Shown here: positions 6,894-10,403 of the stretch, piece after piece
How the letters are laid out: every line of letters starts with the position of its first letter
Position numbering within the stretch: position 1 is the first letter of the stretch
NCBI GenBank assembly: GCA_007128135.1
Contig: SKYA01000037.1
Span: forward strand, 1-54,104
Source of the DNA: Paracoccaceae bacterium
GTDB lineage: Bacteria; Pseudomonadota; Alphaproteobacteria; Rhodobacterales; Rhodobacteraceae
Length of the DNA stretch: 54,104 nucleotides
Direction of reading: 5' to 3'
The notes under the pieces: model-generated
What the model was told of the DNA's origin: nothing
What the model saw: only the letters and a program-made list of their open reading frames with translations
The model's database searches: none
Position numbers and translations under genes: made by a program

Positions 6894-8255
6894 ATGGCGC
6901 TCGACGCGCTGCGCGACGTTTTCGGCCCGCGTTTCAGCACTGGCGCGTCGGATCGCGCCCTGCATGGCCGCTCGGAGTCGCATTTCCCCGAAATGGCCCC
7001 GGATGCCGTGGTCTGGCCCGAAACGACCCAGGAGGTGGCGCAGATCCTGCGCCATTGTTCCGCCCACAGGCTGCCGGTCATCGGCTGGGGCGCGGGCACC
7101 TCGCTCGAAGGGCACGCACTTGCGCCTCATGGCGGCGTCTGTGTCGATTTCAGCCGCATGAACCGCGTGTTGAGCGTGGTCCCCGAAGACATGCTGGCCG
7201 TTGTCCAGCCCGGCGTGACCCGCGAGGCGCTGAACGGGGAATTGCGGGCGACCGGGCTTTTCTTTCCGGTCGATCCCGGGGCGAATGCCACGCTGGGAGG
7301 CATGGCAGCCACGCGCGCATCGGGCACCACCGCCGTGCGCTATGGCACCATGCGCGCCAATGTTCTGGCGCTCGAGGTCGTGCTGGCTGACGGGCGTGTG
7401 ATCCGCACAGGCAGCCAGGCGCCGAAATCCTCGACCGGCTATGACCTGACGGCGCTGTTCGTGGGCGCGGAAGGCACGCTGGGGCTGATAACCGAGCTGA
7501 CCCTGCGCCTTCAGGGCCAGCCAGAAGCCGTCACGGCGGGGCTTTGCGCCTTTGCCGACATGACAAGCGCGGTCGCGGCCGTGATTGCCACGATCCAGAG
7601 CGGCATTCCCATGGCACGGATCGAGTTCATCGATGCCGCCAATGTCCGCGCCTTCAATGCCTGGGCAGGGACCAGTATGGACGAAACCCCGCATCTGATG
7701 GTCGAGTTCCATGGCAGCCCCGCCGCTGTGCGCGAGCAGGCCGAAGCCTTTGGCGGGATCGTGGCCGACATGGGCGGCGGGGCGTTCCAGTGGTCCGAAC
7801 GCGCCGAGGACCGCAATCGTCTGTGGAAGATGCGCCACGAAGGTTATTACGCCGCCCGCGCCGCGCATCCCAATGCCTTTCCGGTCACCACCGATATCTG
7901 CGTGCCGATCTCGAAACTGGCAGAGGCCGTGGAAGAAACCGCCCGGGACATCGCGCAAGCGGGTATCCCGGGGCCTATTCTGGGCCATGTCGGAGATGGG
8001 AATTTCCACGCGCTCCTGCTGCCTGACCGAGACAGCCCCGAGCAGATTGCAAAGGCAAAGGCGCTGGCCAGCGCGCTTGCAGAGCGCGCGCTGCGTCTTG
8101 GCGGCACAGTCAGCGGCGAGCACGGGATCGGCATGGGCAAGCTGGGCTACATGCAGGCCGAGCATGGCAGCGCCTGGGCGGTAATGGGCGCACTCAAGGC
8201 CGCGCTCGACCCGCTGGGAATCATGAATCCCGGCAAGATGGTCCGGCAGGAATGA
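6894..8255 (+). CDS. FAD-binding oxidoreductase, D-lactate dehydrogenase (cytochrome)/GlcD type
   Basis: A 453-residue flavoprotein of the 2-hydroxyacid oxidase family. The PCMH-type FAD domain covers about residues 35-215, with VIGWGAGTSLEGH and the pyrophosphate-loop GGMAATRASGTTAVRYGT. The C-terminal substrate domain has GHVGDGNFHALL and the family signature GEHGIGMGK near 415. The order and length fit cytochrome-linked D-lactate dehydrogenase (Dld) or the D subunit of glycolate oxidase. No GlcE or GlcF neighbours are present, which favours a stand-alone D-lactate or D-2-hydroxyacid dehydrogenase. The natural electron acceptor is not visible. It follows the DUF427 gene by 4 nt. Confidence 0.9.
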   Translation: MALDALRDVFGPRFSTGASDRALHGRSESHFPEMAPDAVVWPETTQEVAQILRHCSAHRLPVIGWGAGTSLEGHALAPHGGVCVDFSRMNRVLSVVPEDMLAVVQPGVTREALNGELRATGLFFPVDPGANATLGGMAATRASGTTAVRYGTMRANVLALEVVLADGRVIRTGSQAPKSSTGYDLTALFVGAEGTLGLITELTLRLQGQPEAVTAGLCAFADMTSAVAAVIATIQSGIPMARIEFIDAANVRAFNAWAGTSMDETPHLMVEFHGSPAAVREQAEAFGGIVADMGGGAFQWSERAEDRNRLWKMRHEGYYAARAAHPNAFPVTTDICVPISKLAEAVEETARDIAQAGIPGPILGHVGDGNFHALLLPDRDSPEQIAKAKALASALAERALRLGGTVSGEHGIGMGKLGYMQAEHGSAWAVMGALKAALDPLGIMNPGKMVRQE

Positions 8256-8376
8256 GCGCAGCGCCAGTGTGGCACGGTGCTCACCCGTCGCGCGCCCGTT
8301 CCAGATGATTTTCGAAGTGAATGATCGTATAAGACACGCGATATGATCTTGCGCGGATGATGACGAAACGGGTCTG

Positions 8377-9006
8377 ATGACGCTTTCCGGTCTGCATATG
8401 TTCCGATTTCACGCCATGCGGCACCTCTGCGCATGGGCATCGGCCGTGGCCTGCGCGCTGCTGCCGATGGCGCAGGCACAGGCCCAGGGCATGACCGACC
8501 GGGTGGGGTTTCTGGACCGGACCTTCCTGCTGCAGATGCGCAGCGGGTCCAGCCGCTCGGCCCTGGCGGCACAGATGGCCGTGGGCGGATATGAGCTGGA
8601 CGATGGCACGCCGGTGGATTTCGCGCCCTGGTACACGCCGCGCTTTCCAGAGATGAACCTGCTGTTCCTGACCTCGCTCACGCCGTCCTTCGGGGTGACA
8701 TGGGGGGTCAGCACGGGCGAACGCGGCCAGAAATACACCATTGATCCGGGGCTGTGGCTGGGCTTTGTCTGGCGCCAGCAGATCAGCCCGCGCAGCACGC
8801 TGAGCCTCTCGGCATCGACCCTGATGGGTGGGAACATGCGCGAACAGACCTGTCAGGCCTACTACCGGATCACAGGCGATTTCGCGACAGTCAATTGCCG
8901 TCTCGCCGCCTCGACACTTGCGCCGGAGGACACGCTGAACTACCTTGAACGCCGCTCGGGCCTGCGGGAGTCGCGTGTCCTGCTGCGCTACGAATTCCGG
9001 TTCTGA
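8377..9006 (+). CDS. Exported protein, probable small outer-membrane beta-barrel
   Basis: I do not recognise the family. The protein (209 residues from the first ATG; ATGs at 8398 and 8416 would also leave a full signal peptide) begins with a signal peptide ending in AQAQAQG near residue 37. The mature part alternates short beta-like stretches with turns, contains two Cys (159, 174) that could form a disulfide, and ends in RYEFRF. A terminal Phe preceded by alternating aromatic residues is the usual targeting signal of outer-membrane barrels. Segments such as GLWLGFVWRQQ and STLSLSASTLMGG look like strand-turn-strand units. It faces the lipoprotein subtilase gene tail to tail with 15 nt between. 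Role unknown. Confidence 0.7.
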   Translation: MTLSGLHMFRFHAMRHLCAWASAVACALLPMAQAQAQGMTDRVGFLDRTFLLQMRSGSSRSALAAQMAVGGYELDDGTPVDFAPWYTPRFPEMNLLFLTSLTPSFGVTWGVSTGERGQKYTIDPGLWLGFVWRQQISPRSTLSLSASTLMGGNMREQTCQAYYRITGDFATVNCRLAASTLAPEDTLNYLERRSGLRESRVLLRYEFRF

Positions 9007-9021
9007 CCTGTTGGCGCCGCG

Positions 9022-9957
9022 TCAGTGAATCGTTGCCGGTGCAAGGGCGCGCGACAGGCTCGCCTCGCCGCGCCCGTGCAAGGCCGGGTCGAAGCTCTTG
9101 ATCGTGTCCGTGCGCGCAGTGTCAAGCAACTGGTTCGCGATCTGGGTCGGGCTTGCGTTGGTGAACTTGCTGCCGAGGATCGCGGCATATCCGCTCACGA
9201 TCGGCGCCGCGAAGGAAGTGCCTTCCAGCCCGGTCAGTTCCGACAGCACACCGACGCTGAGGAACTGGTTCTGCACTGTCGGGTCGCTTCCGGCGAAACT
9301 GGAATATCCGGTCAGGCTGGCAGGGTCATCAGGCGTGCCGTGCCGGTCGAGCGCGCCCACGAAAATGGCCGACGGTGCCCCGATCAGGGCGATATTCAGC
9401 AAATCCTTCCGGTTGCTGTTGACACCGAAAACGCCATCCACCGCCACCGAAGTGTTGCCCGCCGATTTCACGATCAGGGCGTTTCCGGCATGCGCATGGG
9501 CAATCAGCGAATGCTCGATCACGGCGCTGGTCAGGTTCTGGATGTCGCTTGAACTGCTGCCGGGGTAACTGTAGCTGAGATTCATCACGTTCAGCTTGTT
9601 GGGAACCAGATCCACCGCCGCGCGGTATGAGAAATCGATCTCGCGGATCTGCGCCGATGGCGCAATCACGCTGATCTGCGTGGAGGTCCAGAAGCCATGG
9701 GTCCCTTCCATCTCGCCATAGCCCAGATTGGCACGGAACTGGCTGCCGATGAAACGGTCCACCAGTGTCACATGCGTGCCCTGCCCGAAATACCCTTCGG
9801 CCCAGGCCTCGTCGATCTCGGGGTGCATCCAGGTGTATAGCTGCCCCGGCTGCGGGGTCGGGCCCATGCCGACAAGGCCGAGACCGTCTTCGCCGTTGCC
9901 CATGCAGGCGCCCAGCATGACGCAGGCCGCGAGCACCGCACTCAATCTTCGCAACAT
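9022..9957 (-). CDS. Lipoprotein subtilisin-like serine protease (S8 family), compact
   Basis: A 311-residue protein whose signal peptide ends in the lipobox LGAC (lipidated Cys18), so it should be a periplasm-facing or outer-membrane lipoprotein. The S8 catalytic set is present in order: Asp67 in THVTLVDRF, His87 in EGTHGFW, the oxyanion Asn168 in KSAGNTS, and Ser248 in LEGTSFAAP. The C-terminal DPALHGRGEASLSRAL is the helix that closes S8 domains. The motifs around Asp and His deviate from the usual D-S/T-G and HGTHV. No propeptide and no autotransporter barrel are attached, so it is essentially a bare catalytic domain. ATG at 9957 follows ACCGGAGACC. Substrate unknown. Confidence 0.85.
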   Translation of the reverse strand: MLRRLSAVLAACVMLGACMGNGEDGLGLVGMGPTPQPGQLYTWMHPEIDEAWAEGYFGQGTHVTLVDRFIGSQFRANLGYGEMEGTHGFWTSTQISVIAPSAQIREIDFSYRAAVDLVPNKLNVMNLSYSYPGSSSSDIQNLTSAVIEHSLIAHAHAGNALIVKSAGNTSVAVDGVFGVNSNRKDLLNIALIGAPSAIFVGALDRHGTPDDPASLTGYSSFAGSDPTVQNQFLSVGVLSELTGLEGTSFAAPIVSGYAAILGSKFTNASPTQIANQLLDTARTDTIKSFDPALHGRGEASLSRALAPATIH

Positions 9958-10148
9958 GGTGGTCTCCGGTAAACTCGTGAATCCGAGAGTAGCGAATTGC
10001 GCGGTCCCCCTCAAGCGGTTCGATCCTGCGATGGCAATACGCCTCGCCCGCGCCGGCCCCGCCTCCGGATTGACATGTATCAAGGCGCCGGCGCCCGAAA
10101 CATGCTGTCATGGTGACCGGTAGCAAGCATGTATCCGGGAGCAAAGAC

Positions 10149-10403
10149 ATGAGCCTGCTTTCAAGAATAGACCATCATACAAACCTTTTCCTTCGCATGT
10201 CCGAAGCACGCAACGCAGATGTCGCGGATGCGCTGATGCACGGCAGGATCGACCCGCAGACCCTGCGCAGTTCCGTGTTTCGCTGCATGCAATGCGACGA
10301 AACCGGGAAATGCGAGCAATGGCTGGACGAAGACGGCGAAGGTCCGACGCCCGAGCCCCTGGGCTGCCGCAACAGGTCGCTGCTCGAGAGGCTCGGACGG
10401 TAG
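10149..10403 (+). CDS. DUF6455 family protein, four cysteines
   Basis: An 84-residue protein that I recognise as DUF6455, a small family common in Rhodobacteraceae. The C-terminal half carries four Cys in the pattern C46-x2-C49-x5-C55-x17-C73 (FRCMQCDETGKC ... LGCRNRS), suggesting a metal or iron-sulfur site, though this is inference. The N-terminal half is helical (RIDHHTNLFLRMSEA...DALMHGRIDPQTLR). There is no signal peptide, so it is cytoplasmic. ATG at 10149 follows GGGAGCAAAGAC. It is divergent from the lipoprotein subtilase and convergent with aroB. Confidence 0.8.
   Translation: MSLLSRIDHHTNLFLRMSEARNADVADALMHGRIDPQTLRSSVFRCMQCDETGKCEQWLDEDGEGPTPEPLGCRNRSLLERLGR

Follow-up and report, generated by a model that had tools for sequence, protein, structure and literature searches.

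Most subtilases fold with the help of a propeptide; an exception cited in PMC9549277 is the ASP protease of Aeromonas sobria. ASP requires the product of the adjacent gene, ORF2, which is described as acting both as a chaperone and as a temporary inhibitor (PMC5638518). In NalP, SphB1 and Ssp, the protease and an outer-membrane barrel are parts of one chain (PMC9977779; the layout is also given in PMC2605481), and NalP and SphB1 are described as lipidated (PMC9977779). Finally, the dentilisin complex of Treponema denticola (PrtP-PrcA-PrcB) is presented as an outer-membrane complex built on an acylated subtilase, PrtP, for which the small operon partner PrcB is required (PMC8167434).

The window analyzed here, a stretch of 54,104 nucleotides covering positions 1 to 54,104 of contig SKYA01000037.1 of a Paracoccaceae bacterium, encodes a subtilase and, next to it, a small protein predicted to resemble an outer-membrane barrel, referred to below as the partner or barrel (Table 1). 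We conclude, with a probability of about 0.9, that subtilase and barrel constitute a two-gene protease module with a joint function. As in ASP-ORF2, a propeptide-less subtilase is found beside the gene for a separate, dedicated partner and the pair is kept across genera, as far as the accounts of ASP-ORF2 describe it (PMC5638518, PMC9549277). In contrast to the module protease, ASP is a larger protein (a residue 566 is discussed), assigned in these accounts to kexin subfamily S8B, and the ORF2 gene is placed downstream of ASP, whereas the module partner is usually encoded upstream of, or convergent to, its protease and has an outer-membrane-barrel-like end. A profile of the barrel matched none of the solved chains at E≤10, a set from which ORF2 may be missing. 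With NalP, SphB1 and Ssp, as they are outlined in PMC9977779, the module shares the combination of a subtilase with an outer-membrane barrel, but these proteins are single chains, whereas the module has protease and barrel in two open frames, both in the window and at each of the 71 related loci, and the module barrel is smaller. A type Va autotransporter was therefore ruled out, the barrels also being without the Pfam autotransporter beta-domain (none at E≤1 in 50 of the 50 barrels scanned). Dentilisin resembles the module in its acylated subtilase, its outer-membrane location and its small partner. It differs in having three genes, a lipoprotein as the small partner (PrcB), and a PrtP that carries both a prepropeptide and, at its C-terminus, a domain of about 250 residues, according to the description in PMC8167434. 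The mycosin model TIGR03921 was the best NCBIfam match for the catalytic domain (E 3.5e-14), but the subtilase scored far below the cut-off of that model (52.7 versus 278.75 bits), and identity as a mycosin was ruled out.

Table 1. Positions and parts of the subtilase gene, the partner gene and the gap between them, in window coordinates.
Feature	Position	Strand	Description
Partner gene	8398..9006	+	202 aa, convergent to the subtilase; start codon picked by eye; listed open frame begins at 8377
Partner, parts			Signal peptide; 8 predicted strands; C-terminal beta-signal RYEFRF; TGExGxKYxI; C152; VNCR (C167)
Intergenic gap	9007..9021	.	15 bp between the stop codons of the convergent pair
S8 subtilase	9022..9957	-	311 aa, ATG to stop; Cys18 lipobox; from translation and Pfam S8
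Subtilase, parts			Catalytic domain, about residues 40-307; Asp67, His87 (HGFW), Asn168, Ser248 (GTSFAAP)

Peptidase_S8 (PF00082; E 6.8e-15; score 55.6 bits, cut-off 21.8) was the sole Pfam domain of the subtilase at E≤0.1, in agreement with a first-pass annotation of this DNA that had described an S8 domain and nothing else, and the same domain was present in 45 of 45 aligned relatives. An AlphaFold2 model of the subtilase, for which the input alignment comprised 45 sequences (L033, L044 and L071 were among the rows left out), had a mean pLDDT of 90.7 and a pTM of 0.87 and was disordered over its first 30-odd residues. When this model was compared with known structures by VIA-align, the best neighbor was the passenger of Ssp (Z 24.9; rmsd 3.2 over 240 residues), followed by numerous subtilisins at Z 23-24 (rmsd 2.5-2.9 over about 215 residues). 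Residue 39 of the model was paired with residue 2 of the subtilisins, and the confident fold begins at about residue 40, some 20 residues past Cys18. The lipobox noted earlier is present, but the spacing of about 45 residues assigned between it and the domain is not; a distance of 45-50 residues separates Cys18 from Asp67. The window genome, which is 95% complete, has a single S8 match, namely this gene. Judged from its sequence, the window subtilase is an intact, bare S8 domain and probably an active enzyme.

Conservation of the catalytic motifs was examined in 72 rows, consisting of the window and the 71 loci recovered in a barrel-first scan (see below), after removal of copies of one gene that had been obtained by two routes; each catalytic column is covered by 71 rows. 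Translation confirmed the positions given earlier for Asp67, His87, Asn168 and Ser248, and each of these residues was identical in 71 of 71 covering rows, leaving among the covering rows no homolog without D67, H87 or S248, the kind that the first-pass annotation had named as counter-evidence. Among relatives that are 40-64% identical to the window subtilase, such conservation of four residues exceeds chance, as judged from the alignment.

The same annotation had described the Asp and His motifs as altered, and the context of both residues is indeed unusual. On the Asp side the motif of the subfamily is D-D-F, with F69 in 71 of 71 rows and Asp at residue 68 in 67 of the 71 covering rows; the window protein, with Arg at this position (D-R-F), is an exception. 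In the window, codons 66-68 of the protease lie at 9752-9760 and place Arg68 beside the catalytic Asp67. On the His side, the only column with His in every covering row (71/71) is that of His87, which is followed by Gly (71/71), a variable residue, Trp (66/71) and Thr (62/71). As read from the aligned sequences, the signature of the subfamily is D-D-F (D-R-F in the window) together with HGxWT, the latter in place of HGTHV. What did not stand was the reading of EGTHGFW as a changed HGTH, which is in the wrong register, the true motif being H87-G88-F89-W90. Since just 2 of 72 rows have Glu in the column of E84, and His87 never varies, EGTH is a chance likeness to HGTH. The same two observations ruled out both a loss of the catalytic His, with EGTH as a mutated HGTH, and a sedolisin-like Ser-Glu-Asp triad that uses E84. 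In the AlphaFold2 model, D67 lies at the end of a strand, H87 at the start of a helix and S248 just before a helix, as in subtilisins. Structure prediction, which had been suggested as a check on the triad, gave a confident subtilisin fold with the triad residues at subtilisin-like positions, as read from the secondary-structure elements of the model. Because all four catalytic positions are invariant, the unusual motifs appear to mark an intact subfamily, not damage.

The N-terminus of the window subtilase contains the lipobox V-M-L-G-A-C, which ends at Cys18 of a hydrophobic signal. The earlier description of the protein as a lipoprotein consequently fits the window protein but does not extend to the family, since a simple pattern detected a lipobox in only 8 of 71 relatives, located at two places on a quick tree. 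The other relatives have, by eye, an ordinary signal peptide, except that the N-terminus of L033 is missing. In the shortest precursors just 33 residues precede the catalytic domain, signal peptide included, and no Pfam domain other than S8 was found at E≤0.001 in 45 of 45 relatives. A leader of this length and the lack of a second Pfam domain indicate a subtilase family without a visible propeptide, with signal peptides and the absence of a propeptide being judged by eye and by Pfam. That no propeptide domain was found also supports the special folding needs that had been suspected for this protease.

In the partner, about 170 residues remain after a signal peptide that was recognized by eye. 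The C-terminal residue is Phe in 71 of 72 sequences, and the positions at 0, -2, -4, -6 and -8 from this end are hydrophobic in 89-99% of sequences, compared with 4-8% for positions -1, -3 and -5. A hydrophobic C-terminal strand that alternates in this way and ends in Phe is the pattern of the outer-membrane beta-signal. Y79, TGExGxKYxI, E149, C152 and VNCR are nearly invariant. The predicted structure (pLDDT 90.8, pTM 0.75) contains eight strands of at least 6 residues. Foldseek returned no structural match at E≤0.001 (best E 0.16), and the VIA search gave none with Z≥8; its best match (Z 5.7) is weak and perhaps reflects just a common arrangement, and membrane barrels made up almost all of the first 40 rows. 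The window partner had no family match in Pfam or NCBIfam (E≤1) or in PHROGs or PADLOC (E≤0.1), and matches of single barrels among the relatives to Pfam (best E 0.0091) and NCBIfam (best E 0.056) were dismissed as chance. Taken from sequence and model, the partner looks like a small outer-membrane barrel of no recognized family. The barrel was absent from phage records at E≤0.01. An anti-phage role is unsupported: for the protease, the PADLOC matches were a subtilase model of generic type (E 2.6e-7) and, weakly, IetS, and three barrels gave no match.

To what extent the two genes occur together was assessed from both sides. The barrel-first scan covered genomes of 84,980 species by alignment of the barrel via one peptide pattern, and 93 candidate stretches yielded 71 confirmed loci. 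The pattern was built from barrels already known beside S8 genes, so barrels that lack it would escape the scan. An S8 gene of the window subfamily adjoins the barrel in 71 of 71 loci, with open frames no more than 253 nt apart, although about 20 of the 71 are Mesorhizobium loci with common flanks and the 71 loci are therefore not 71 independent events. A sample of the order contained the barrel in 7 of 390 genomes and the S8 gene in all seven of these, and a sample of the class contained the barrel in 2 of 385 genomes, again with S8 in both; in plasmid records with the barrel the S8 gene adjoined it in 7 of 7, these genome samples and plasmid sets partly overlapping one another. When searches started from the protease, the genus yielded 10 places, spread over 9 of its 37 genomes, and the family yielded another 9; the barrel lay beside 17 of these 19. 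The two S8 places without a barrel are at contig ends: L008 runs off its contig within the gene, and L015 begins at the edge of its contig, its other side being free of a barrel over 5.1 kb. A more sensitive S8 profile found the subtilase in 9 of 355 family genomes, with the barrel present in 9 of 9. The remaining subtilases of the family all fell short of E 1e-12, indicating that the S8 subfamily is well set apart. The neighborhoods of homologs, which had been proposed as a check, thus show the barrel beside S8 in both search directions, and the suggestion that a partner is encoded nearby was borne out by a barrel neighbor that is constant wherever adjoining DNA is visible. In one genome of the same genus (G009) the module occurs twice, on separate contigs (L007 and L010), and a barrel gene accompanies each of the two proteases.

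The order of the two genes varies. Among the 71 loci, 54 have the order barrel-S8, 13 are convergent and 4 have the order S8-barrel; the automatic tally was 53/13/5, and L073 was moved by hand from S8-barrel to barrel-S8 because its open frame is over-long. Parsimony on the quick tree, from which the fragments L033 and L071 were left out, gave at least 7 order changes, though well-supported branches alone force far fewer. These changes indicate that the closeness of the pair outlives rearrangement, and since the pair is reshuffled yet kept together, a joint function would be the best explanation. In the convergent arrangement the two genes are not co-transcribed. A search of the flanks of the loci identified no third conserved gene recurring beyond related groups, and some Rhodobacteraceae loci also have neighbors in common. 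Within the window, the gap between the genes contained no hairpin beyond those of shuffled sequences (fold z-score +1.11), one terminator was found in 8200-10250 against 1.4 expected, no promoter signal of note was seen, and there were no Rfam or tRNA matches. A short DUF6455 gene (10110-10403, plus strand; E 9.5e-23) lies upstream of the protease and outside the conserved pair.

The subtilase gene has a patchy distribution, being present in 9 of the 37 genus genomes and 10 of the 394 family genomes, with that of the window counted in. The 71 loci are chiefly from Alpha- and Betaproteobacteria, mostly Rhodobacteraceae/Paracoccaceae, Mesorhizobium, Devosia, Alcaligenaceae and Comamonadaceae. 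Seven plasmid records of nodule bacteria (Rhizobium and Mesorhizobium) carry the module, and six of the seven are typed as conjugative. The first-pass term "housekeeping" is not supported, given this patchy occurrence and the relatives on rhizobial plasmids of conjugative type. IS elements are found near the module on the Rhizobium and Mesorhizobium plasmids of L109-L114. On pMLa of Mesorhizobium japonicum (NC_002679.1, L108) the protease is annotated in two pieces, so that this copy looks broken; an intact barrel gene and an IS6 transposase lie next to it. Four metagenome bins labeled Bordetella parapertussis (three) or Chitinophaga pinensis (one) also carry the module (L044, L047, L050 and L089), and these species labels are doubtful because the protease tree groups the bins with lake Alcaligenaceae-type and Comamonadaceae relatives.

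How the two proteins might act together can be sketched from their parts. The S8 half would be a propeptide-less enzyme exported by Sec, and lipidated in the clade of the window, and the partner half a small, Sec-exported, beta-barrel-like outer-membrane protein. The separate barrel would then most likely provide in trans what is provided in cis by the propeptide of classical subtilisins or by the barrel of most autotransporter subtilases: it may aid the folding of the propeptide-less catalytic domain and keep the protease at the outer membrane, where it might also restrain the enzyme until this is in position. Either the lipid, in the clade of the window, or the partner, elsewhere, would retain the enzyme at the outer membrane. 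This proposal of folding, docking and restraint follows from the union, in two genes, of a propeptide-less domain like that of ASP with an outer-membrane element like that of autotransporters. We put the chance that the partner serves the protease in this manner, by folding, anchoring or restraint supplied in trans, at about even. Physical contact between the two proteins, the direction of help, the side of the membrane and the substrate are points that we infer; the first-pass annotation had suggested that the protease may mature a partner, and we judge help given by the partner to the protease to be more likely. A stronger version is held only tentatively, at rather less than even odds: that this is the first class of subtilase for which a separate integral outer-membrane barrel serves as cognate foldase and as docking site, the protease itself lacking a propeptide, and that such a split protease-barrel system arose independently of autotransporters and of ASP-ORF2, moves on plasmids and has spread across Alpha- and Betaproteobacteria.

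At the level of sequence, the roles of foldase, anchor, inhibitor and substrate are not separable, and other relationships between the two genes deserve consideration. The barrel could be an inhibitor or immunity protein that shields the cell envelope, resembling a toxin-antitoxin system outside the cytoplasm. Such a role would suit the position of the partner gene, which comes first in 54 of 71 loci, the patchy distribution with conjugative plasmids and IS elements close by, and the precedent of ORF2, reported to be chaperone and temporary inhibitor in one (PMC5638518). Nevertheless, in the 13 convergent and 4 S8-first loci protection would come under separate promoters, and a barrel held in the membrane could meet few protease molecules, making inhibition as the main role unlikely. 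The constant adjacency of the genes would equally suit a barrel that is the substrate, trimmed by the protease as a whole or at a loop, and there are parallels in NalP and SphB1, subtilases described as cutting other surface proteins (PMC9977779), and in dentilisin, where PrtP is described as cutting its operon partner PrcA (PMC8167434). We consider this reading a doubtful one, given that the barrel has no apparent pro-region and that its highest conservation falls in predicted strands, TGExGxKYxI and VNCR rather than in an exposed linker.

Two further explanations were considered. If the odd DRF and HGFW context reflected damage to the Asp and His motifs, the S8 half would be a pseudoenzyme; this is very improbable with the four catalytic positions invariant (71/71), the triad residues at subtilisin-like secondary-structure positions in the model and the domain aligning to subtilisins at Z 23-24. 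Adjacency might also be no more than the inheritance of neighbors that have no functional link, as the common flanks of the 20 Mesorhizobium loci, and likewise of some Rhodobacteraceae, could suggest. Elsewhere, however, the flanks vary and the pair persists, on plasmids too, in Alpha- as well as Betaproteobacteria and in three gene orders, so that inheritance without a functional link is very improbable.

In six annotated plasmid records the protease is called an "S8 family serine peptidase" or "S8/S53 family peptidase" and the barrel a "hypothetical protein". The pair was not found described in the titles and abstract openings listed by searches of the open-access literature, where absence is weak evidence, and the protease-barrel unit had probably escaped notice. 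Its recognition turns two dull annotations into one testable unit and poses the question of how a propeptide-less subtilase is folded and controlled in the envelope. If the barrel is a helper, it would represent a third solution to this problem beside propeptides and soluble chaperones of the ORF2 type, and an outer-membrane family that has no name would gain its first function.
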